DNA from: Amycolatopsis bartoniae
GTDB taxonomy: Bacteria > Actinomycetota > Actinomycetes > Mycobacteriales > Pseudonocardiaceae
Assembly: GCF_014191255.1 (NCBI RefSeq)
Contig: NZ_JACHWH010000009.1
Span: 124,001 to 188,000 of the forward strand
Direction: 5' to 3'
DNA length: 64,000 bases
Each line of letters opens with the position of its first letter. Position 1 is the stretch's first letter. This document shows, piece by piece, positions 46,489-55,702 of this stretch. Position numbers and translations under genes: made by a program. The notes under the pieces were generated by a model. That model searched no databases and was not told the DNA's origin. It worked only from the letters and a program-made list of their open reading frames with translations.

Positions 46489-47166
46489 TCACAGGCCGAC
46501 CGTGACGTAGCGCTGCCCCGCGAAGTTCTCCACCTCGACGCTCGCCACGTCGGCGGGGGCGACGAGCGCGGCGCCGGACAGCTTCGTGCCGTCGTGCTCC
46601 CCTGACTCCGACACCAGCCAGCTGCCCGCCTCTTCGCGGGTGCCGTCGCGGCCGACCACGAACAGGCGGCACTTCTGCCCCCGCGGGATTCCGGCGACGG
46701 AGGCGTCGAGCCGGACCCACCCCGCGGCGGGCTGCACGGAGACCGTCATCGTCGCACCCGTCCCGGTGTCGGTGGCCGACGCCGTCTTCGTGCCCGCGGG
46801 CGCGGCCTGCGCGGAACCCGCGGTGACGCGGCCGACGGCGACCCCGCCGCCCGCGAGCGCCACGGCGACCGCGACCGCGGCGACTCCCGCGACCGTCCGC
46901 CGCCGGCGCACCTGCGCCCCGCTCTCCCGCCGGATCCGGTGCAGCGCGCGCTGCAGCAGCAGGTCCCCGCCGTCGGGCGGGCCGTCCAGCACCGCCTCGG
47001 GCGGCAGTCCGTCCAGCGCGGCCCGGGTCATCCGCAGTTCCGCCAGTTCCGCCTGGCAGCGCCGGCACGAAGCCAGGTGCTGCTCCATCGCACGCCTCTC
47101 CTGCCCGTCCAGTGCGCCGAGCACGTAGGCGCCCAGTGCACGGGACTCGTGCTCCGGACTCGTCAT
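46489..47166 (-). CDS. zinc anti-sigma factor, RslA-like (pair 1)
   Basis: A 225-residue membrane anti-sigma factor: N-terminal zinc-finger ZAS motif (His30, Cys34, Cys37 in QHLASCRRCQ), one membrane helix (about 90-112) and an extracytoplasmic beta-rich domain of about 100 residues (CRLFVVGRDG, AGSWLVSE). It would hold the sigma factor encoded just upstream until a signal frees it; zinc-ligand cysteines often make this redox-sensitive. ATG 47166 overlaps the sigma stop by 4 nt. Confidence 0.88.
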   Translation of the reverse strand: MTSPEHESRALGAYVLGALDGQERRAMEQHLASCRRCQAELAELRMTRAALDGLPPEAVLDGPPDGGDLLLQRALHRIRRESGAQVRRRRTVAGVAAVAVAVALAGGGVAVGRVTAGSAQAAPAGTKTASATDTGTGATMTVSVQPAAGWVRLDASVAGIPRGQKCRLFVVGRDGTREEAGSWLVSESGEHDGTKLSGAALVAPADVASVEVENFAGQRYVTVGL

Positions 47167-47717
47167 CCGGTGACCTCCGGTATCGCGACCTGACGGCTAC
47201 CGCCGAAAGTCTGCCGCATCGCCCTGAGCGCGTAGTAAGACCTGGATTTGACCGTTCCCGGCGGCACCCCGAGGGTCTCCGCCGCTTCGGCGACGCTGCG
47301 GCCGCGGAAGTAGATCTCGGTCAGCACGTCCCGGTGCTCCGGCGACAACCGCTCCAGAGCGTCGAGCACGACCATGGAGTTCACGACCGAGTCGGCGTGG
47401 TCGGCCTGTACGGCCGTGGTGACCGGGGTTTCGGCCACCTCGGCGGGCCGGGCGGACTTGGCGCGGTAGCGGTCGGTGATGATGTTGCGGGTCACCGTCA
47501 GCAGCCAGCCGCGCACCGAACCCTTGCCGTTGACGAGCGAGTCGGGGTGCCGCCACGCGCGCACCAGGGTCTCCTGGACGACGTCCTCGGCGGCGGCCCG
47601 GTCGTTCGTCAGCCGGGTCGCGTAGGCGAGCAGCGCCCGCCCGTGCTCCTCGTAGAGCGATCGGATCAGTGCCTCGTCGGCGACCGCCGCTCGTTTGCGG
47701 GCCCACAGAGCCGGCAT
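47163..47717 (-). CDS. ECF sigma factor, SigL-like (pair 1)
   Basis: A 184-residue ECF sigma factor. Region 2 spans about residues 18-88 (LYEEHGRALLAYATRLTNDRAAAEDVVQETLVRAWRH), and region 4 about 118-170 (LSPEHRDVLTEIYFRGRSVAEAAETLGVPPGTVKSRSYYALRAM). It directs RNA polymerase to ECF promoters. It starts 19 nt after the lipoprotein gene behind GAGGAG, so it is probably transcribed with it from the TGAACC-N16-CGTGTG promoter, which would make it self-activating. The next gene encodes its anti-sigma factor. Confidence 0.9.
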   Translation of the reverse strand: MPALWARKRAAVADEALIRSLYEEHGRALLAYATRLTNDRAAAEDVVQETLVRAWRHPDSLVNGKGSVRGWLLTVTRNIITDRYRAKSARPAEVAETPVTTAVQADHADSVVNSMVVLDALERLSPEHRDVLTEIYFRGRSVAEAAETLGVPPGTVKSRSYYALRAMRQTFGGSRQVAIPEVTG

Positions 47718-47736: not shown

Positions 47737-48672
47737 TCAGTAGCTCGAGCCGCCCGGGTCCGCGGCGGGCGCGGTACTCGAGGGCGAGCCGGTGGTGGTC
47801 AGTGGTTTCTTGCCGTCGGCGACCTTGCAGCCGTTCTGCTCGAGCTCGAACCAGACGCCGTTCACGGCGTGCCCGTTCGCCTGCCCCGCCGCGGTGTCCT
47901 TGGCGTAGCGGTAGACCGGCCAGCCGCCGATGGTCACCTGCACGGTGCCGTCGCCGCGGGTGACCTTGCCGACGAGCTTCGGGTCGACGCCGTTGACCTG
48001 CACGTCACCTTGTGCGAGCAGTGGCGGCCACGCGGTCGCGCACGCACCGTCGCAGGTGGACTTCGACGGTTTCTTGCTGTCCTTGGTGTAGAGGTAGAGC
48101 GTTCTGCCGTTCTGGTCGGTGAGCACCGTGTCCAGCCCGGGGATGTTCGTGGTGTTGATCGCGGTCTGCTGTTCCTGCGTGGTGGCCTTGCCGCCGGTCG
48201 GGGTGACCGCGTGCCAGGTGTCGCCGACGTCCTGGCCGTTCGCCTGGCCCGCCGCGGTGTCCTTGGCGTAGCGGTAGACCGGCCAGCCGTTGACCGTGAC
48301 CTGGGTGCTGCCGTCGCCGCGGGTCAGCGTGCCGACGAGCTTCGGGTCGACGCCTTCGACGTCGACCGTGCCGGTGGCCAGCACCGGCGGCCACGCGGTG
48401 GCGCAGGTCCCTTCGCAGGTGGACGCCGGCGGGTTCGCCGTGTCCTTTTCGAACCGGTAGAGCGTGTGCCCGTCCTGGTCGGTGAGCACCTGCCCGAGTC
48501 CGGCCACGTCGGCGGCGACCAGCTTGGCCTGCACCGCCACCGCCTGGCGCTGCACGGCGACCGGGGTCGGGGCGGGCGTGGGGGCCGGGCTCGCGCCGGT
48601 GGTGGCGCTGCAGGCACCGAGGAGGCCGAGGCCGGCGACGGCCGTGACCGAGAGGACGAGGCGCGCGGACAT
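47737..48672 (-). CDS. COG4315-type lipoprotein with two Yx(F/W/Y)xxD repeats (SCO0930-like)
   Basis: A 311-residue secreted lipoprotein (lipobox LLGAC, Cys21). Two about 105-residue repeats follow (about 55-165 and 175-285), each with VLTDQ(D/N)G(H/R)TLY, a first YxxxKD motif, a CxxxC pair followed by TAWPP, then KLVG(T/K)(L/V)TRGDG, GWPVYRYAKDTAAGQANG and a closing W. The family is described only as secreted repeat of unknown function. The paired cysteines and conserved aromatics suggest a redox or metal/heme surface role; that is inference. ATG follows AAGGAG. Confidence 0.88.
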   Translation of the reverse strand: MSARLVLSVTAVAGLGLLGACSATTGASPAPTPAPTPVAVQRQAVAVQAKLVAADVAGLGQVLTDQDGHTLYRFEKDTANPPASTCEGTCATAWPPVLATGTVDVEGVDPKLVGTLTRGDGSTQVTVNGWPVYRYAKDTAAGQANGQDVGDTWHAVTPTGGKATTQEQQTAINTTNIPGLDTVLTDQNGRTLYLYTKDSKKPSKSTCDGACATAWPPLLAQGDVQVNGVDPKLVGKVTRGDGTVQVTIGGWPVYRYAKDTAAGQANGHAVNGVWFELEQNGCKVADGKKPLTTTGSPSSTAPAADPGGSSY

Positions 48673-48781: not shown

Positions 48782-50383
48782 TCACTCGTTGCAGGTGCGC
48801 CCGGTGTTGATGCAGTTCACGACGCGCCACATGATCCGCTGCGACATCACGTTGGCGAAGTCGTCGTGGTCGGACAGCGGGTTGTGGTGCTCCTCGGGGA
48901 AGGAGTCCACTTTGTACTGTCCGGCGACCTGGACGTCGTGCGGGATGTCGTAGGTCAGCGTGACCCGCAGCTGCGGCACCGCCACGAACCCCTTCTGGCA
49001 GCGCCCGTTCGCGTCGGGGAACACGATGTGCGTGCGATGGTTGGCGCTGTCGATGTTCTTGCCGTCCCAGCAGCTCGGGAAGTCGTGGATCCGCTCGACC
49101 TTGCTGCCCTCGGGGCAGACCGGGTACTTGTCGAGGATCCGGTCCTCCATGCCGGTGCACGTCCACGCTGCCCGCGCGTTGGTCGGGCCGTTGGCGTCCT
49201 CCTTGGCGTCACCGGTGAGCACGCGCAGGAACCTCGGCATCGCCCTGACCCTGGTCACCGGGCTGCCGCGGAAGGTGAGCGAAACCGTGGCGGGGCGCTG
49301 GATCACGCCGTCGTTGCCGGCGACCTCGTTGTTGTCGCCCTCGGGGCCGGGCAGCTCGCTCGCGCTGCTGCTGGCCGCCGCGCTACTGCTGCTGGTGGCC
49401 GCCGCACTGCTGCTGGCCGCCGCGCTCGACGAGGTCGGCGCGGTCGTCGTCGTGGTGGTGGGCTTGCCGCCGCCACCGTGCTTGCCGCCCCAGCCGCGCT
49501 TGCGCTGGTTGTCCGCCGCGGCGAGGGTGGCGGCGTTGTCGCTGTTCTGGTCGCCGTTGTCGATGCCGGCGCTGGTGGCGTCCTTCACGCCGCAGGTGGC
49601 GAGGTCCTGGCCCTGGCCGAGCTGCTGCCCGGTGGCCTGCTTGATCTTGTCGATGCTGGCCTGGCGCTGTGCCTTGAGCGGCTGGAGCACCTGCTGCTCG
49701 GCGGCCTCGTCCGGCGCAGTCGCGAGCTGCTGGTCGGCCGCGGCCGCCTGCTGGTCGAGGTTGCCCAGCTCGGTGTCGACGGTGGCCATCGCCTGGTCGG
49801 GCACGGTGTCGAGCTGGCTGGCCACGTCCGGGCAGTCGGTGCGCGGGGTCGCCGCGTCCTCCGCGTCCTGGTCGCTCTGGGCCTCCGCGCTCGTGTCGGC
49901 GGCCGCGGCCTGGGACTCGGTGGTCTCCTCCTCGTCCCCGGTGTCGATGCGCACGACCGGCCAGAAGTACGCGGACTGGTCGCCGTTCTTGCAGGTGGTG
50001 CCACCGGCCAGCAGGCTCTTGTTGTTCGAGTCGGCGTTGGTGGTGAGGTTGCCGACGTAGTCGTGCAGGTGCTGGGCTCCGTTGTGGATGCCGGGCTGCG
50101 CGATGAAGTTGTCGGGGTTGAAGTGCCCGTTCTCGTTCTTTCCGCAGTTCACCGTGAACGTGCCGGTGGACGCGCCTCGCTGGGGTTTGGGGGTCTTGAC
50201 GTTCGCCGCCACGGTGTTGATGTCGACGAAGAACGCCTTGTCGACCGCGTCGGCACTGGCGGTGCCGGGTTCGCCTGCCGTGGTCGCGACGACGACGCCG
50301 CTCGCCGCGAGGGCGAGACCGACGACTCCGGTCGCGATCTTCGTCCGGCGGCTGACGCGATGTCGGCCTTCGGTGCGGGCCAT
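48782..50383 (-). CDS. secreted DUF1996 protein with large low-complexity insertion
   Basis: A 533-residue exported protein (signal/anchor helix at 15-36). The DUF1996 domain is split: the first part (about 68-150) has NENGHFNPDNFIAQPGIHNG and HLHDYVGN, and the second part (about 360-533) has PSCWDGKNIDSANHRTHIVFPD and PQLRVTLTYDIP. Between them lie a Gln/Ala/Asp-rich probable coiled coil (about 190-262) and a Thr/Ser/Ala tract (308-342). DUF1996 has no established function. ATG 50383 is preferred over TTG 50389. An ECF promoter of the SigL type precedes it. Confidence 0.85.
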   Translation of the reverse strand: MARTEGRHRVSRRTKIATGVVGLALAASGVVVATTAGEPGTASADAVDKAFFVDINTVAANVKTPKPQRGASTGTFTVNCGKNENGHFNPDNFIAQPGIHNGAQHLHDYVGNLTTNADSNNKSLLAGGTTCKNGDQSAYFWPVVRIDTGDEEETTESQAAAADTSAEAQSDQDAEDAATPRTDCPDVASQLDTVPDQAMATVDTELGNLDQQAAAADQQLATAPDEAAEQQVLQPLKAQRQASIDKIKQATGQQLGQGQDLATCGVKDATSAGIDNGDQNSDNAATLAAADNQRKRGWGGKHGGGGKPTTTTTTAPTSSSAAASSSAAATSSSSAAASSSASELPGPEGDNNEVAGNDGVIQRPATVSLTFRGSPVTRVRAMPRFLRVLTGDAKEDANGPTNARAAWTCTGMEDRILDKYPVCPEGSKVERIHDFPSCWDGKNIDSANHRTHIVFPDANGRCQKGFVAVPQLRVTLTYDIPHDVQVAGQYKVDSFPEEHHNPLSDHDDFANVMSQRIMWRVVNCINTGRTCNE

Positions 50384-50495
50384 GAACAACTCACCTCGTT
50401 CGGGTCTTCACCCCGGGGCGCGCGCAGGGGCAGCTCCCAGGGCAACAGTGGAAATGGTTGGTGACGGAGAAGGCCCCCGAGGCCCGTCACAGAGG

Positions 50496-50523
50496 TATAC
50501 GGACGCGAGGCTCAGGTAGTTCA
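50496..50523 (-). promoter_or_regulatory. SigL-type ECF promoter of the DUF1996 gene
   Basis: On the minus strand TTTTGAACT (TGAACT at 50523-50518), a 16-nt spacer and CGTATA (50501-50496). It has the same spacing as the promoters at 48710 and 51881 and shares the upstream T-run with the latter. It gives a leader of about 105 nt before the DUF1996 start. Confidence 0.7.
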
Positions 50524-50563
50524 AAACGCGACCTGGCCGTTATTCCGGCGTGATAATCCCTGG

Positions 50564-51262
50564 TCAGCGAGGGATGGTGGCGAGCAGCTCGCCGTCCGGA
50601 GTGCGGATCTCGAAGCGGGCGATCTCCGCCGGGGCGAGTCCGGTGCCGCCCGAGATGCGCAGCGGGTCGGGTGCGCCCGCGCCCGGCACGGTCCAGCTGG
50701 AGACGATCTGCTCGGCCCCGGCCCACGGCACGGCGACCAGGAGACAGGTCTTCGGCCCGGTGGCGCCACCGAGCACGAGGTCGACGTTGGAACCCCACGC
50801 GGTCGGCTGCACGATCACCTGCGCCTGCAACGACTTCCCGGTCTCCCCGCCCGCGAACATGCTGGCGGTGCCCGGCGCGCTCGACACCGGCGTGCTCGCC
50901 GCGACGGGCGCCGGGGCCGCCGTGGGAGCGGAGCCGGAGGGCAGCAGCGCGATGGTGATGAGCGGGCCGGCGAGAATCAGCAGCACCGCGGCCACCGTGG
51001 CGATCCGGGTCAGGAGGCGGCGGCGCCGGCGCTGCCGGGCGAGCTCGTCGAACATCCCGCCCAGCGGGCGCGGCTGCGGGATCGGCGGATCAGGCCAGTA
51101 CTTGGCGACCTCGGCGAGGATTTCCGGCAGGTCGGAGAACTCCAGCAGGTCGAGCTGGCAGTGCGGGCAGTCGAGCAGGTGGGCCTCGAAGACCGCGCTC
51201 TCGGTTTCGTCGAGGACCCCGAGGACGTAGGCGGCGATGTCGGTGTGCGCTACCCCTCCCAC
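50564..51262 (-). CDS. zinc anti-sigma factor, RslA-like (pair 2)
   Basis: A 232-residue membrane anti-sigma factor built like the copy at 46489: ZAS motif His28, Cys32, Cys35 (AHLLDCPHCQ), an Arg-rich stop-transfer and a membrane helix (about 84-107), then an outside domain with CLLVAVPWAG, SSWTVPG and ARFEIRTPDG that parallels the other copy. It should sequester the sigma factor encoded 6 nt upstream. Start GTG 51262, or possibly the internal GTG before AHTDIAAYV. Confidence 0.87.
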   Translation of the reverse strand: MGGVAHTDIAAYVLGVLDETESAVFEAHLLDCPHCQLDLLEFSDLPEILAEVAKYWPDPPIPQPRPLGGMFDELARQRRRRRLLTRIATVAAVLLILAGPLITIALLPSGSAPTAAPAPVAASTPVSSAPGTASMFAGGETGKSLQAQVIVQPTAWGSNVDLVLGGATGPKTCLLVAVPWAGAEQIVSSWTVPGAGAPDPLRISGGTGLAPAEIARFEIRTPDGELLATIPR

Positions 51263-51268
51263 CGCGCG

Positions 51269-51826
51269 TCACCCCCGATCTCGTAAGGCCCGCCGCAGCG
51301 CGCGTACCGCGTGGTAGATCCGGGACTTGACCGTACCGGGGGGAATGCCGAGGGCGGCCGCGACCTCGTTCACGGTTCGGTCACGGATGTACGTCTGCAG
51401 CACGGCTTCCCGCTGTTCCGGGGTGAGGCTGCGCAGTGCGTCGTAGACGACCATCGCCGCGAGCGTCCGGTCCGACTCGTCGGGCACGCCGATGGTGTCG
51501 GCGTCCGCCTCCTCGACCTCCTGCGGGCGCGCCTGCCTGCTGCGCCAGCCGTCGATGACGATGCGGCGCGCGACGGTGTACAGCCACGCGCGCAGCATCT
51601 CCGGCTCGCGGTCGAGCTTGTCGGCGTTGCGCCAGGCGCGGATCAGCGTCTCCTGCACGACGTCCTCGGCCCACTGGCGGTCGCCCGCGGTCAGGGTCAG
51701 GACGAACGCCAGCAGCGGCCGTCCGAACTCCTGGTACAGAGCGGCGGCAAGGTCGTCGGGGCCGTGGTCGGGCTCCGGCTCGACGACGGCTCTCAAAGAT
51801 CGGCTGTGGCGTCCCACGGGCGACAT
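51269..51826 (-). CDS. ECF sigma factor, SigL-like (pair 2)
   Basis: A 185-residue ECF sigma factor: region 2 has LYQEFGRPLLAFVLTLTAGDRQWAEDVVQETLIRAWRN, and region 4 has LTPEQREAVLQTYIRDRTVNEVAAALGIPPGTVKSRIYHAVRAL. It resembles the factor at 47163 in layout and recognition helices. It is divergent from the lipoprotein/electron-transfer operon. The ATG at 51826 lacks a clear ribosome-binding site; a start slightly downstream is possible. I see no TGAAC-type promoter in front of it, so its own control may differ. Confidence 0.88.
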   Translation of the reverse strand: MSPVGRHSRSLRAVVEPEPDHGPDDLAAALYQEFGRPLLAFVLTLTAGDRQWAEDVVQETLIRAWRNADKLDREPEMLRAWLYTVARRIVIDGWRSRQARPQEVEEADADTIGVPDESDRTLAAMVVYDALRSLTPEQREAVLQTYIRDRTVNEVAAALGIPPGTVKSRIYHAVRALRRALRDRG

Positions 51827-51880
51827 CTTTACGGTGAACCGGGCAGTAGTCCAGTACCAAAAAATTCGTTCATGTTCTTT

Positions 51881-51908
51881 TGAACCGCTTCCGCCCACCC
51901 GCCGTATC
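51881..51908 (+). promoter_or_regulatory. SigL-type ECF promoter of the electron-transfer operon
   Basis: TTTTGAACC (TGAACC at 51881-51886), a 16-nt spacer and CGTATC (51903-51908). It shares the element sequences and exact spacing with the promoters at 48710 and 50496. It lies in the 238-bp gap that separates the divergent sigma gene from the lipoprotein gene and implies a leader of about 150 nt. Confidence 0.72.
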
Positions 51909-51997
51909 CCCCGGCGAAGGCCCCGCAGCGCTGACCCCCGACAGCGCTTTCACTCCACTGTGGACTCATTCGTCCATAGTGGATCCAACGCGCCCGT

Positions 51998-52018
51998 ACG
52001 CAGGTGTTTCACCTGCGT
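51998..52018 (+). promoter_or_regulatory. hairpin in the leader of the electron-transfer operon
   Basis: ACGCAGGTG pairs perfectly with CACCTGCGT around a TTT loop, 47 nt before the lipoprotein ATG. A smaller hairpin (TGGAC/GTCCA, 51961-51976) lies upstream. These could stabilise the mRNA or modulate elongation; no known riboswitch class is recognisable. Confidence 0.5.
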
Positions 52019-52064
52019 CGGCGCACGCCCTGGCCCCCGACAGGGAAGGAAGTTCCGCTCAGTG

Positions 52065-52601
52065 ATGCACAGAAAACCCCGATCGGCGATACCGCTCGCC
52101 GCGGCCGGACTGGCCGTGTTCGCGGTCACCACGGGCTGTGACGTGCCCAGCTCGTACTCCTCCGCCGCAGGTCAGAACGGCATGGCGACCATGGGCACCA
52201 CCGACACCGGTCCCGCCCTCACCGCCGTGCGCGCGTTCGACCTCGGTCCCGTCGTCGTCGACGGCGGTGGCTACGTCGTCTACCGCTACGACCGCGACAC
52301 CACCAACCCCTCGAAGTCCACGTGCACCGGCACGTGCGCGCAGCAGTGGAAGCCGGTCCCCGCCAGCGCCACGCAGCACATCACAGGTCTGGACCAGTCT
52401 CTGGTCGGCACCTTGACCAGGGACGACGGCACCGACCAGGCGACGTTGAACGGGTGGCCGCTCTACCGCTACACCAAGGACCAGATGCCCGGCGAGACCG
52501 CGGGCCAGGGCATGGGTGGCGTGTGGTTCCCCGTCACGCCGCAGGGCGGAAAAGTCCAGACTGCGGCCGATCCCGGGCGGTCCGATGCGTTCGGACTCTG
52601 A
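52065..52601 (+). CDS. COG4315-type lipoprotein, single repeat (SCO0930-like)
   Basis: A 178-residue lipoprotein (lipobox TTGC, Cys25) with one copy of the repeat that occurs twice in the protein at 47737: YVVYRYDRD, STCTGTC with the CxxxC pair, QQWKPV, SLVGTLTRDDGTDQ, GWPLYRYTKDQMPGETAG and VWFPVTPQGGK. Function is unknown. It heads an operon with DUF4142, cytochrome-like, ferredoxin and reductase genes and overlaps DUF4142 by 17 nt. ATG 52065 or GTG 52062 is the start; an in-frame extension upstream is not credible. Confidence 0.87.
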   Translation: MHRKPRSAIPLAAAGLAVFAVTTGCDVPSSYSSAAGQNGMATMGTTDTGPALTAVRAFDLGPVVVDGGGYVVYRYDRDTTNPSKSTCTGTCAQQWKPVPASATQHITGLDQSLVGTLTRDDGTDQATLNGWPLYRYTKDQMPGETAGQGMGGVWFPVTPQGGKVQTAADPGRSDAFGL

Positions 52602-53358
52602 CCGGAAACTCCGCCGCCTGCTGGTATTGCTGGTCGTACTGGTGCTGAGCCAGATGGCGGCACCCGCGATCGCCTCGGCACAGACCGTGACGCTCACCGA
52701 TCCGGAGAAGGACCTCCTGAACCGGGTGCGCCAGGCGGGTCTGTGGGAGATGCCCGCGGGCGACATGGCCCGCGTGCGCGCGGAAACGCCGCACGTGCGC
52801 CAAGTCGGCGAGACGCTCATGGTCGACCACGGCAGGCTCGACGTCGCGGTGCGCGACCTCGCCGCGAAGTACCGGCTGACCCTGCCCGACCAGCCGACCG
52901 CCGACCAGCAGAGCTGGCTCGCCGAAATGCGCGGCGCCACGTCGTCGTCGCAGTTCGAGCGGGTGTTCGCCAACCGGCTGCGTGCCGCGCACGGCGTCAT
53001 CTTCTCGGTGATCGCCGGCGTCCGTGCGGGCACCCGAAACGACGAGATCCGCGCGTTCGCCGCGACCGCGAACCAGGTGGTGCTGCGGCACATCACGCTC
53101 CTGGAGAGCACCGGGCTCGTCGACTACGACGCGCTGCCGCAACCGGCACTCGGCTCCACGGCTTCGACGTCCGCGGCGACGGCGCTGAACCTCGGGTCCA
53201 TGGACGTCCTCACCAGCGTGGTGCTCGGCCTGCTGGTGTGCGGAGCGACGCTGCTCCTGCTGTGGTTCATCCGCAGCTCCGCGAGAAGAAGACATCGATC
53301 AGGAGACGACCATGCAGCCAACCGCTCTGCTGAGCGTGCGAAACAGCCGGCGGCCTGA
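52585..53358 (+). CDS. DUF4142 protein, secreted with C-terminal membrane anchor
   Basis: A 257-residue protein with a cleavable signal (ends near SAQT, residue 34), a DUF4142 domain of mostly helices (about 36-175; TDPEKDLLNRVRQAGLWEMPAGD, VRQVGETLMVDHGRLD) and a C-terminal membrane helix (about 208-230) followed by a basic tail. DUF4142 is a helical domain I recall as being related to ferritin-like folds. It would face the outside of the membrane. The gene starts inside the lipoprotein gene, so their translation is linked. Confidence 0.82.
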   Translation: MRSDSDRKLRRLLVLLVVLVLSQMAAPAIASAQTVTLTDPEKDLLNRVRQAGLWEMPAGDMARVRAETPHVRQVGETLMVDHGRLDVAVRDLAAKYRLTLPDQPTADQQSWLAEMRGATSSSQFERVFANRLRAAHGVIFSVIAGVRAGTRNDEIRAFAATANQVVLRHITLLESTGLVDYDALPQPALGSTASTSAATALNLGSMDVLTSVVLGLLVCGATLLLLWFIRSSARRRHRSGDDHAANRSAERAKQPAA

Positions 53359-53370
53359 GGAGCGGACGAG

Positions 53371-53958
53371 ATGACGACAGCCGTTCTGGCCCAGGCGACC
53401 ACCGACGCCGGGCTGCGCAGCGTCGCGCAGCTGTCGGCGCGGATCGCGTACGTGTTCATGTGCCTCACGCTGTGCTGGGGCGTGCTCACCGCCACCGGGT
53501 GGGTCCGCAACATCACCGGCCGCAAAGCGTTGCGCGGCAGCCACATGGTGCTGGCGACGCTCACGCTCGCGTTCGGCGTCGTGCATGCCGCGGCGTTCTA
53601 CTTCCTGTCCGTCGGCGCGTTCTCGGTGGTGCAGCTGACCGTCCCGTTCCTGCCCGGCGGCCTCGCCCGGCACGCGCTCGGGATCATCGGGCTGGAGCTG
53701 ATGATCGCCATCGCGATCACCGCGAGCACGCACCGGTTCATCGCCTACCGCCGCTGGCTGTGGCTGCACCGCCTGGCGTACCTGGCGATCCCGCTGCTGG
53801 CGATCCACTCGTTCTTCGGGGCGATCGCCAACGGCCACCTGGCGGTGCTGTGGCTCGCCGGCATCACGCTGCTGGTCCCGACGCTCACGCTGTCGGTCCT
53901 GCGGTTCCTGCCCTCGCGCGCGCTCGAGCGCGTCGGACTCGTCGAGGAGCTCATTTGA
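53371..53958 (+). CDS. ferric-reductase/YedZ-like cytochrome b membrane protein
   Basis: A 195-residue protein with about five membrane helices. Several histidines are placed as in b-type heme proteins of the ferric-reductase-like transmembrane group: GSHMVLA, VVHAAAF, LARHALG, LHRLAYLA and AIHSFFG. It could carry electrons across the membrane between the ferredoxin made next in the operon and the secreted lipoproteins. Heme binding and direction of flow are inferred. The stop overlaps the ferredoxin TTG start (TTGA). Confidence 0.82.
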   Translation: MTTAVLAQATTDAGLRSVAQLSARIAYVFMCLTLCWGVLTATGWVRNITGRKALRGSHMVLATLTLAFGVVHAAAFYFLSVGAFSVVQLTVPFLPGGLARHALGIIGLELMIAIAITASTHRFIAYRRWLWLHRLAYLAIPLLAIHSFFGAIANGHLAVLWLAGITLLVPTLTLSVLRFLPSRALERVGLVEELI

Positions 53959-54182
53959 AGACGCTCGACCGCTTCCGCGGACCGCGGATCAGCGTGGACA
54001 ACGACCGGTGCGAGGTCTTCGGGATCTGCGTGTGGGAGGCGCCCGCCCTGTTCCAGCTCGACCGGGACGGCAGGCTGCGCTACCGGCGCCAGCTCCAGGA
54101 GGAGGACTTCGAGCAGGCCGCCGCGGCGGCCCGCTGTTGCCCGATGCAGGCCATCGTCCTGAGAGGGATGCAAGATGAGTGA
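53955..54182 (+). CDS. 3Fe-4S ferredoxin
   Basis: A 75-residue ferredoxin of the single-cluster type: Cys19-x5-Cys25 and CCPMQAI (Cys62-Pro63), so one of the usual four cluster cysteines is replaced, which fits a 3Fe-4S centre as in cytochrome P450 partner ferredoxins. TTG 53955 is the start, overlapping the upstream stop. It overlaps the reductase gene by 8 nt. No P450 gene is nearby; the likely partners are the reductase and the cytochrome-like protein. Confidence 0.87.
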   Translation: MKTLDRFRGPRISVDNDRCEVFGICVWEAPALFQLDRDGRLRYRRQLQEEDFEQAAAAARCCPMQAIVLRGMQDE

Positions 54183-55431
54183 TGGAGACAGAATCGTCAT
54201 CGTCGGCGGCGGGGTCGCCGGCCTGCGCGCGGCCGAACGGCTGCGCGAGCTGGGGTTCGACGGCGAGGTCATCATCGTCGGCGACGAGCGGCGGCGGCCG
54301 TACCACCGGCCGATGGTGTCCAAGCAGCTGGTGACCGGGCAGATCCGGCCGATCGACGCGGATCTCAAGCCCTACATCGAGCTGGACGCGCACTGGCGGC
54401 TCGGCACCCGCGCGACGCACCTGGACACCAGCCAGCGCGTCGTGCACCTGCCCGGCAAGGAGGAGCTCTGGTACGACGGGCTGATCATCGCGACCGGCGT
54501 GGTGCCCCGGCACCTGCCCGGCGCGCCGCGGCACGACCCGCGGGTGCGGGTGCTGCGCACGGTCGAGGACGCGATCTCGCTGCGCCGCGCGCTGACCGCC
54601 AGCAGCAAGCCCGCCGTGGTGATCGGCAGCGGGCTGATCGGCTGCGAGTTCGCGGCCAGCATGCGCACGCTCGGCCGGGACGTCACGCTCGTCGGGCACG
54701 CGAAGGCGCCGCTGTACCGGTTCGGCCCGCGCGTCGCGCAGGCCGTGGCCGAGACGCACGAGAAGCACCGCGCGGGACTGGCGATGAACTCCGAGGTGCG
54801 GCACTGGATCAGCACCAAGGACGCGTTCGGGCTGCACCTGACCAACAACCAGCTCGTCGTGGCCAGCTGCGTGGTGCTGTCGATCGGCAGTGTGCCCGCG
54901 GTGGACTGGCTGCGTGGTTCGGGGCTCGACATCTCCGACGGCGTGCTGTGCGACGCGACGCTGTTCGCCGAGGGCGCCGAGGACGTCGTGGTGGCCGGGG
55001 ACGTCGCGCGCTGGCCGAACCTGCGGTTCGACGAGACGCCCCGGCGCGTCGAGCACTGGATCAACGCGGTGGAGTCCGCGCGGGCCGCGGCGGAGAACCT
55101 GATGGCGGGACGGCGGTTGGCCAAGCCGTTCACCCCGCTGCCGCGCGCCTGGTCGAGCATCTACGAGCACCGGCTGCAGATGGCCGGGATGCCCGCGCTC
55201 GGCGAGGACACGGTGCAGCTCGACGACGGTGTGACCGGGTTCGTGCGCGGCGGCCAGCTGGTCGGCGCGGCGAGCTGGGACAAGCCGCGCGCGATGCTGC
55301 ACTGGACCGCGGAGCTCGAACGGCGCCTGCCGGTGCCGGAGTACACGCCGGTCGCCGAGCCGGAGGGCATGGAGCTGAGCGAGGCCGTGTTCTCCGAGGA
55401 GGAGTGGCTGACCGTGGGCCAGGGAGTCTGA
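54175..55431 (+). CDS. FAD-dependent ferredoxin reductase
   Basis: A 418-residue reductase with two dinucleotide motifs, [16 protein letters not shown] (FAD, residues 8-23) and VVIGSGLIGCEFA (NAD(P)H, 148-160), the ATG motif LIIATGVVPR, and VVVAGDVARWPN closing the FAD site. It follows the layout of putidaredoxin-reductase-type enzymes, which pass electrons from NAD(P)H to small ferredoxins. The 8-nt overlap with the ferredoxin gene makes them a natural pair. The C-terminal 90 residues are the usual dimerisation domain. Confidence 0.9.
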   Translation: MSDGDRIVIVGGGVAGLRAAERLRELGFDGEVIIVGDERRRPYHRPMVSKQLVTGQIRPIDADLKPYIELDAHWRLGTRATHLDTSQRVVHLPGKEELWYDGLIIATGVVPRHLPGAPRHDPRVRVLRTVEDAISLRRALTASSKPAVVIGSGLIGCEFAASMRTLGRDVTLVGHAKAPLYRFGPRVAQAVAETHEKHRAGLAMNSEVRHWISTKDAFGLHLTNNQLVVASCVVLSIGSVPAVDWLRGSGLDISDGVLCDATLFAEGAEDVVVAGDVARWPNLRFDETPRRVEHWINAVESARAAAENLMAGRRLAKPFTPLPRAWSSIYEHRLQMAGMPALGEDTVQLDDGVTGFVRGGQLVGAASWDKPRAMLHWTAELERRLPVPEYTPVAEPEGMELSEAVFSEEEWLTVGQGV

Positions 55432-55432
55432 G

Positions 55433-55702
55433 GTGGCCGACACCGACACCGGGCCACTGCCCGCGCCCGAGGACGTTCTCGATGCCGTGCGCGGCCACCG
55501 GCTCGCGGAGATCCGCCGCGGCCGCGGCCTGACCCAGCACCACCTCGCCGAGAAGATGGGAGTTTCGCAGAGCCACGTCTACGAGATCGAACGCGGGTCG
55601 ATCGCCGAGCGGGAAGCGCTTTCGCGGTACGCGCTGGCCCTCGGCGGCAGGCTGCGGCAGACGATCCACTTCGACGACGGGGACATCGCCGTGGTCGAGT
55701 AA
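55433..55702 (+). CDS. XRE-family helix-turn-helix regulator
   Basis: An 89-residue protein with a Cro/C1-type helix-turn-helix (LAEIRRGRGLTQHHLAEKMGVSQSHVYEIERG, residues 24-55) and a short acidic tail. GTG 55433 is two bases after the reductase stop. Single-domain proteins like this are often antitoxins, but no toxin gene is adjacent, so a regulator of its own operon is more likely. A strong terminator follows. Confidence 0.82.
   Translation: MADTDTGPLPAPEDVLDAVRGHRLAEIRRGRGLTQHHLAEKMGVSQSHVYEIERGSIAEREALSRYALALGGRLRQTIHFDDGDIAVVE

Follow-up and report, generated by a model that had tools for sequence, protein, structure and literature searches.

In MsrPQ (YedYZ), the periplasmic methionine sulfoxide reductase system, a membrane heme protein of the ferric-reductase fold passes electrons outward to a partner encoded in the same operon. 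Bacterial NADPH oxidases (NOX) such as SpNOX likewise have a two-heme transmembrane domain, and the MsrQ-like clusters that are associated with flavinylation, which are common in Actinobacteria, pair a two-heme protein of family PF01794 with extracytoplasmic redox proteins and, in at least a subset, draw on NAD(P)H (PMC8238504 and PMC11334425). Here we describe an operon with related logic in a 64,000-nucleotide stretch of the Amycolatopsis bartoniae genome (NCBI RefSeq assembly GCF_014191255.1, contig NZ_JACHWH010000009.1, positions 124,001 to 188,000 of the forward strand; hereafter the window). Its six genes encode a COG4315 probable lipoprotein, a DUF4142 protein, a ferric-reductase-like membrane protein, a ferredoxin, a ferredoxin reductase and an XRE-type regulator. 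Together with genes divergent from it, the operon probably specifies a stress-inducible module for exporting electrons across the membrane.

The module works like MsrQ- and NOX-type transmembrane transfer but lacks the defining features of MsrPQ, of the flavinylation-associated clusters and of NOX. No molybdopterin MsrP was detected with Pfam among the ten operon and divergent genes; unlike MsrPQ, the operon has a dedicated [3Fe-4S]-type ferredoxin and a flavin adenine dinucleotide (FAD) reductase, and its candidate partners are DUF4142, COG4315 and DUF1996 proteins. The PF01794 protein and the extracytoplasmic partners recall the flavinylation-associated clusters, but those are defined by ApbE and FMN-binding proteins (PMC8238504). 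Neither ApbE nor FMN_bind turned up in the scan of ten window genes (ApbE was not searched for genome-wide), and a flavinylation system was rejected on that basis. The only FMN_bind match in the genome lies on another contig (C16), and neither family is among the 25 commonest of the 93 detected when 135 neighbours around 18 diverse loci were scanned (genes longer than 700 residues excluded). Unlike NOX, the 195-residue membrane protein carries no FAD/NADPH dehydrogenase domain on its chain; a ferredoxin and a separate flavoprotein are present instead. We found no paper on this gene composition in the open-licence literature, which is weak evidence because most subscription journals were not covered.

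The conservation of the gene set was analysed in two sets of loci. The first comprised 45 loci, the window and 44 from named genomes, of which 43 come from genera that we take to belong to the Pseudonocardiaceae and one from Kribbella; the second comprised 40 loci hand-picked across genera from a 297-genome sample of the family. The two sets share species (e.g., L049/L150, L051/L166, L066/L155; L numbers denote loci). Loci were scored by six-frame profile searches, and genes were called with a simple codon-score script; the profiles themselves derive from the first set, whose counts are therefore partly by construction. A neighbourhood search for co-occurrence had been suggested in an earlier reading made from the DNA letters alone (the sequence-only reading), and the core proved to be well conserved. 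In the first set, a ferredoxin was present at all 45 loci (27 separate, 18 fused to the membrane protein), a reductase at 43, DUF4142 at 39 and COG4315 at 26. In the second set the numbers were 38, 37, 29 and 19 of 40. A Pfam scan of the 135 neighbours independently gave the same picture, with Pyr_redox_2 (16 matches), DUF4142 (13), sigma-70 region 2 (12), Fer4_15 (9), PF03640 (8) and zf-HC2 (7).

The membrane protein was found in 114 of the 297 sampled genomes, representing 17 of the 46 genera of the family, and its nearest relative among the named loci is that of Amycolatopsis sacchari (92% identity). When 41 genomes (40 relatives and A. bartoniae itself) were searched, strong membrane-protein matches (E < 1e-40) occurred at 19 places, and ferredoxin and reductase genes adjoined all 19. 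Weak ferric-reductase homologues served as controls, with flanks of ~1.5 kb: ferredoxin and reductase adjoined one of 11 by tblastn with the window proteins, and none of seven had these neighbours by profile. The one positive, L016, comes from another family of the same order; its membrane protein is 30% identical and the gene order is DUF1996, a 426-residue membrane protein/ferredoxin fusion with a proline-rich tail, then the reductase. A phylum-wide search of 396 genomes (8 candidates scored per genome) gave matches at E 1e-12 in four genomes, strong only in the window's own, and the distant L016 version gave weak matches in four of the 396. In the A. bartoniae genome itself, two of the three PF03640 proteins and one of the three DUF4142 matches fall at this locus.

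The membrane protein passes the curated PF01794 cut-off and has two histidine pairs. The sequence-only reading leaned on conservation of the heme-ligating histidines, and this held: H58, H72, H133 and H146 were invariant in 19 of 19 sequences and then in all 37 of a wider alignment. Within the pairs the residues are 14 and 13 positions apart, a spacing typical of two-heme proteins of the ferric-reductase fold, and the four histidines would be expected to ligate two b hemes. Hydropathy indicates about five helices. The basic loops (residues 46-55 and 122-134) and the basic C-terminus, the end to which ferredoxin is fused elsewhere, point inside, so that H58 and H133 would lie near the cytoplasm and H72 and H146 further out. 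A search of the Protein Data Bank (PDB) with the single sequence found nothing; the membrane part of the profile gave a weak match (E 0.02) to entries 8qta and 8qt6, which we take to be SpNOX.

In 18 of the 45 and 23 of the 40 loci the ferredoxin is fused to the C-terminal end of the membrane protein, an arrangement that puts it directly on the heme protein. All 72 sequences caught by pattern carry the motif C-x2-[YF]-x2-C, and the window protein has the form C-x2-[YF]-x2-C...CP; replacement of the second cluster cysteine is consistent with a [3Fe-4S] cluster. Of the electron route drawn in the sequence-only reading, the stretch from NAD(P)H through ferredoxin to heme thus agrees with the fusions and the four invariant histidines, and DUF4142 and COG4315 proteins as recipients remain a proposal.

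The genes directly divergent from the operon, on the opposite strand, encode a sigma factor of the extracytoplasmic function (ECF) type, an anti-sigma factor, a DUF1996 protein and, downstream of the last and on the same strand, a second COG4315 protein. None of these, nor the promoter motif described below, figured in the sequence-only reading; the sigma/anti-sigma pair and DUF1996 are nonetheless part of the conserved system. The first set contains a sigma factor at 31 loci (29 divergent), an anti-sigma factor at 29, and DUF1996 on the divergent side at 23 and within the operon at one; the second contains a sigma factor at 28, an anti-sigma factor at 24, and DUF1996 on the divergent side at seven and within the operon at five. 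The top PDB match of the sigma factor is SigL (6dv9_F, E 2.1e-28), and its score against NCBIfam PRK09645 falls just below the cut-off (201.1 versus 202 bits). That of the anti-sigma factor is 3hug_B (E 8.6e-5), deposited as a conserved membrane protein and presumably RslA in complex with SigL. The HxxxCxxC motif occurs in all 26 related anti-sigma factors of the cluster. By its closest solved relatives, from Mycobacterium tuberculosis, and by the redox zinc motif common to both, the pair appears to be of the SigL/RslA type; orthology is not claimed. In RslA, oxidation of the HxxxCxxC cysteines leads to loss of zinc and much weakens the hold on SigL (PMC2877774). The M. tuberculosis SigL targets named in PMC2877774, PMC10449499 and PMC13002591 are pks7-pks10, Rv1138c-Rv1139c and recN; the predicted targets here differ, being the transmembrane electron-transfer operon and the DUF1996-COG4315 pair.

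A GAACC-N15/16-CGTA site precedes the first operon gene (COG4315, DUF4142 or membrane protein) at 29 of the 45 loci and precedes DUF1996 at nine of them. The pattern TTTGAAC-N17-CGTATC had 15 matches in the 41 genomes, and the reversed-pattern control had none. Of the 15 matches, 13 fall within this locus: the site stands upstream of COG4315-DUF4142 in eight cases, of DUF1996 in three, of a second sigma gene in one and of the membrane protein in one (L095, where COG4315 and DUF4142 are absent). Since the operon and DUF1996 share the motif, the system most likely extends to DUF1996 and the second COG4315 protein, both of which fall outside the coordinates of the sequence-only reading.

Pfam searches and the open reading frames confirmed the six genes, with the positions, families and overlaps given in the sequence-only reading. 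COG4315 and DUF4142 overlap by 17 nt (52585-52601), the membrane protein and ferredoxin by 4 nt (53955-53958), and the ferredoxin and reductase by 8 nt (54175-54182); gaps of 12 nt and 1 nt precede the membrane protein and XRE genes, respectively. The COG4315 gene, for which the candidate starts are 52062, 52065 and 52116, had been placed at the end of the operon and in fact opens it. The XRE regulator had been counted as a member of the system, but its cluster has four members, at three of the 44 named loci and in the window; it was dropped as a core regulator and is regarded as accessory, kept in few close relatives only. A further ECF sigma/zf-HC2 pair lies just past the second COG4315 gene (46489-47717, minus strand) and also occurs in several close relatives (e.g., L031-L034, L038, L049, L051).

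Table 1. Genes and promoter-like sites of the electron-transfer locus, in window coordinates
Feature	Position	Strand	Support or remark
Second COG4315 protein, four PF03640 repeats, SCO0930-family lipoprotein	47737..48672	-	NF040526 335.7 bits, cut-off 275
Secreted DUF1996 protein	48782..50389	-	Pfam match
Promoter-like site TTTTGAAC-N17-CGTA, before DUF1996	50498..50526	-	
Anti-sigma factor, zf-HC2, HxxxCxxC motif, RslA-like	50564..51262	-	Pfam and PDB match
ECF sigma factor, SigL-like	51269..51826	-	Outermost possible start of open frame 51898
Operon promoter-like site of ECF type, TTTTGAACCG-N15-CGTA	51878..51906	+	
Probable lipoprotein of COG4315 (PF03640) with a Yx(F/W/Y)xxD motif	52065..52601	+	PF03640 94 bits
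DUF4142 protein with a signal region, a helical bundle and a transmembrane helix at the C-terminus	52585..53358	+	Pfam 62.4 bits
Ferric-reductase-like membrane protein, 195 residues	53371..53958	+	Ferric_reduct PF01794 30.2 bits, cut-off 28
[3Fe-4S]-type ferredoxin, TTG start	53955..54182	+	Fer4_15 45.1 bits
FAD-dependent NAD(P)H:ferredoxin reductase	54175..55431	+	Pyr_redox_2 165 bits
XRE-type regulator, accessory	55433..55702	+	HTH_3 38.3 bits

Among the candidate outer partners, the DUF4142 protein has three histidines (H82, H136 and H169) that are invariant in 30 of 30 aligned sequences. In the predicted model (mean pLDDT 86.9), a helical bundle is followed by a membrane helix at the C-terminus. 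Among the fold matches the copper protein CopM ranks first (E 3.5e-3; TM-score 0.78 by target and 0.47 by query), ahead of Rv2844, DUF305 and Dps-like proteins. The outer domain may thus share its fold with the CopM/DUF305 copper proteins (PMC4335983), although the match is weak and DUF4142, unlike those proteins, has a transmembrane anchor. A search of the DUF4142 profile against PDB sequences gave nothing useful, and one relative, at L058, matches the DUF305 profile below its cut-off (23.7 versus 27). In DUF1996, five histidines and eight cysteines were kept in all 36 aligned sequences (from both locus sets, some species represented twice). The COG4315 protein has an invariant cysteine pair (C87/C91), and members with a full N-terminus have a cysteine at the lipobox position, except those at L057 and L071. 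Its model has 108 of 178 residues at pLDDT of 90 or above, and this confident core is possibly a new fold; the second COG4315 protein gave no match in the PDB. COG4315 and DUF4142 form a single open frame at L049 (399 residues) and L051 (420 residues, with both Pfam domains demonstrated). In a tree built from 85 membrane proteins, of which 75 differ and that of L161 was poorly trimmed, these two loci are close, so that this fusion was probably one event. The COG4315 protein is the weakest link in the electron chain drawn by the sequence-only reading.

In the proposed mechanism, the RslA-like zinc anti-sigma factor at first sequesters the SigL-like ECF sigma factor. Once its HxxxCxxC motif is oxidised, it would free the sigma factor, which would then transcribe two units from GAAC/CGTA promoters, the COG4315-to-reductase operon and the DUF1996-COG4315 pair, so that the module would be made when cell thiols or the envelope are oxidised. 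The FAD reductase would draw electrons from NAD(P)H and hand them on to the [3Fe-4S] ferredoxin. This would dock with the membrane protein from the cytoplasmic side, and electrons would cross through the inner heme b (H58/H133) and then the outer heme b (H72/H146). Partners held in the membrane or secreted would use them outside: the DUF4142 protein, a histidine-bearing helical bundle tethered beside the wire, would come first, and the DUF1996 and COG4315 proteins would be further or alternative partners. The likeliest task would be to maintain either a copper or iron centre outside the cytoplasm or an oxidised component of the envelope in the reduced state.

The composition, co-occurrence, fusions, conserved heme ligands and shared promoter motif are supported by the comparisons above, and genomics supports the proposed steps as far as the outer heme. 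We infer the heme itself, the direction of flow, release by oxidation, the metal in DUF4142 and the final acceptor. The system is thus real, conserved and probably redox-controlled, with an inner half that is well supported and an outer half, the acceptor, that we infer. A more specific version, which we advance tentatively, is that a dedicated ferredoxin, acting through a minimal two-heme wire with which it often shares one chain, reduces DUF4142, DUF1996 and COG4315 as a new group of metalloproteins outside the cytoplasm, that this constitutes an undescribed class of transmembrane electron export switched on by envelope or thiol oxidation through the SigL/RslA-like pair, and that one branch has wired it to conservon signalling.

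Four alternatives were weighed. The ferredoxin and reductase might serve a P450 or other oxygenase, with the membrane genes as mere neighbours: the top PDB match of the ferredoxin is the ferredoxin part of a CYP51 fusion, and the reductase resembles oxygenase reductases. We consider this very improbable, given the fusion of the ferredoxin to the membrane protein. P450 genes, detected by a heme-motif pattern in called genes and not by profile, are also rare near the membrane protein (4 of 915 genes neighbouring the first-set loci and 1 of 414 neighbouring those of the second; three of the five lie 4 to 13 genes away), and the window has no P450 motif, as the sequence-only reading had stated. 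That reading had also placed the ferredoxin with the membrane genes and not with P450s, which agrees with the 41-genome search: each of the 18 top-ranking ferredoxin matches (E up to 1.9e-13) adjoins one of the 19 membrane-protein places, and the 15 of these that were opened all had the membrane protein and reductase, with no P450 motif within ~1.5 kb. Among 14 more distant ferredoxins that were opened, by contrast, none had the membrane protein and two had a P450 motif. Searched from both the ferredoxin and the membrane-protein sides, a P450 partnership is largely refuted for the fused forms. Scarcely more probable is true extracellular electron transfer to distant acceptors (minerals or other cells) through the COG4315 lipoprotein. 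It would fit a surface-directed probable lipoprotein within the operon and the COG4315-DUF4142 fusion, but COG4315 was not found at 19 of the 45 loci and the aligned COG4315 proteins lack invariant histidine or methionine. The host group, moreover, consists of aerobic soil bacteria.

Two further alternatives, each unlikely in our estimate, keep the transmembrane wire and change its use. In one, the two-heme protein would reduce O2 outside as a NOX-like generator of superoxide or peroxide, the ferredoxin and reductase replacing the NOX dehydrogenase domain and the DUF4142, COG4315 and DUF1996 proteins binding metals or protecting the wall. The profile match to 8qta/8qt6 favours this but is marginal; so does the branch that sits with signalling genes, whose annotated example (L067) also has a thioredoxin and an AhpC/TSA peroxiredoxin. 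The outer histidine- and cysteine-bearing proteins and the redox-type anti-sigma factor would suit reductive protection better than production of reactive oxygen species. In the other, the membrane protein would be a ferric or cupric reductase for surface metal reduction and uptake, with DUF4142 and DUF1996 holding the metal. The Ferric_reduct match, the resemblance of DUF4142 to CopM and DUF305 proteins and the five invariant histidines of DUF1996 are in keeping with this role, as is the poor growth of an M. tuberculosis sigL deletant under iron limitation (reported in PMC10449499), which would suit a SigL-like metal regulon. However, no metal transporter is among the 25 commonest of the 93 neighbour families.

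Several observations weigh against the electron-export reading. No DUF4142, COG4315 or in-operon DUF1996 was seen at 6 of the 45 and 9 of the 40 loci, so the core can stand alone and may have other uses; L052, L145, L146 and L148 have the core without DUF4142 or COG4315 and, upstream, a gene for a metallo-beta-lactamase-like hydrolase (named by eye). Four fused proteins (L054, L055, L154, L157) have no reductase gene nearby. The PF01794 score is barely above its cut-off (30.2 versus 28), and the ferredoxin fusion needs just two changes on the tree, so that it represents one or two events and not dozens. The DUF4142 fold match is weak, with none below 0.001, and helical bundles match readily, which leaves the copper link only a lead; the COG4315 model has no PDB fold match (best E 1.4), which adds to the lack of invariant histidine or methionine. 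In Saccharothrix obliqua, the gene immediately upstream of DUF4142, 265 nt away and in the same orientation, encodes a P450 (L066 7724-8941); L155 is the same stretch. This locus belongs to the fused, conservon-linked branch, and the P450 gene is read as a neighbour of that branch, yet it is the sole case that suits the P450 alternative. At the level of promoters, 16 of the 45 loci, including the conservon branch, have no GAACC-N15/16-CGTA site. The pattern TTTTGAAC-N17-CGTA matched twice in the 7.76 Mb A. bartoniae genome, before the operon and before DUF1996 (reversed control 0), but it was drawn after both window sites had been seen, to fit both, and so shows only that nothing else in 7.76 Mb matches. 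A stricter pattern from the operon alone, TGAACCG-N15-CGTA, matched the operon and one site on contig C8, and its reversed control also gave one match.

That second site (L079, C8:63335-63360, minus strand) lies ~72 nt before a small open frame, which is followed by a gene for a histidine-rich lipoprotein that matches the DUF4142 profile; it is only a lead, and may be a chance match since the reversed pattern gave one as well.

Other arrangements of the core were also seen. At L054, L055, L154 and L157, the fused membrane protein/ferredoxin adjoins a sigma factor, and the reductases at L074/L162, L158, L159 and L161 are greatly extended at the C-terminus, to full lengths of 768 to 1143 residues; the extension is proline-rich in L074. 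Eight of the 45 loci (L062-L067, L069, L073) have the order DUF4142, fused membrane protein/ferredoxin, reductase, and then DUF742, HATPase, Robl/LC7 and GTPase genes; conservon genes occur at four loci of the second set. The Streptomyces conservons (cvn) are made up of such kinase-like, roadblock, DUF742 and GTPase genes, and the branch seen here differs in having the membrane protein/ferredoxin module next door. Its architecture possibly represents a link from redox to G-protein signalling. The thioredoxin and peroxiredoxin in the annotated example of this branch (L067) fit an oxidative theme, yet would suit a NOX-like generator too.

The family to which A. bartoniae belongs is known for its antibiotic producers. 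If the electron-export reading is right, these bacteria would send reducing power outward through an operon in which no cytochrome c or flavinylated protein was seen. DUF4142, DUF1996 and COG4315/PF03640 are named in Pfam as families of unknown function; their linkage to an NAD(P)H-ferredoxin-heme wire, through gene neighbourhood, one fusion and a shared promoter motif, would give them a testable role in redox chemistry outside the membrane.

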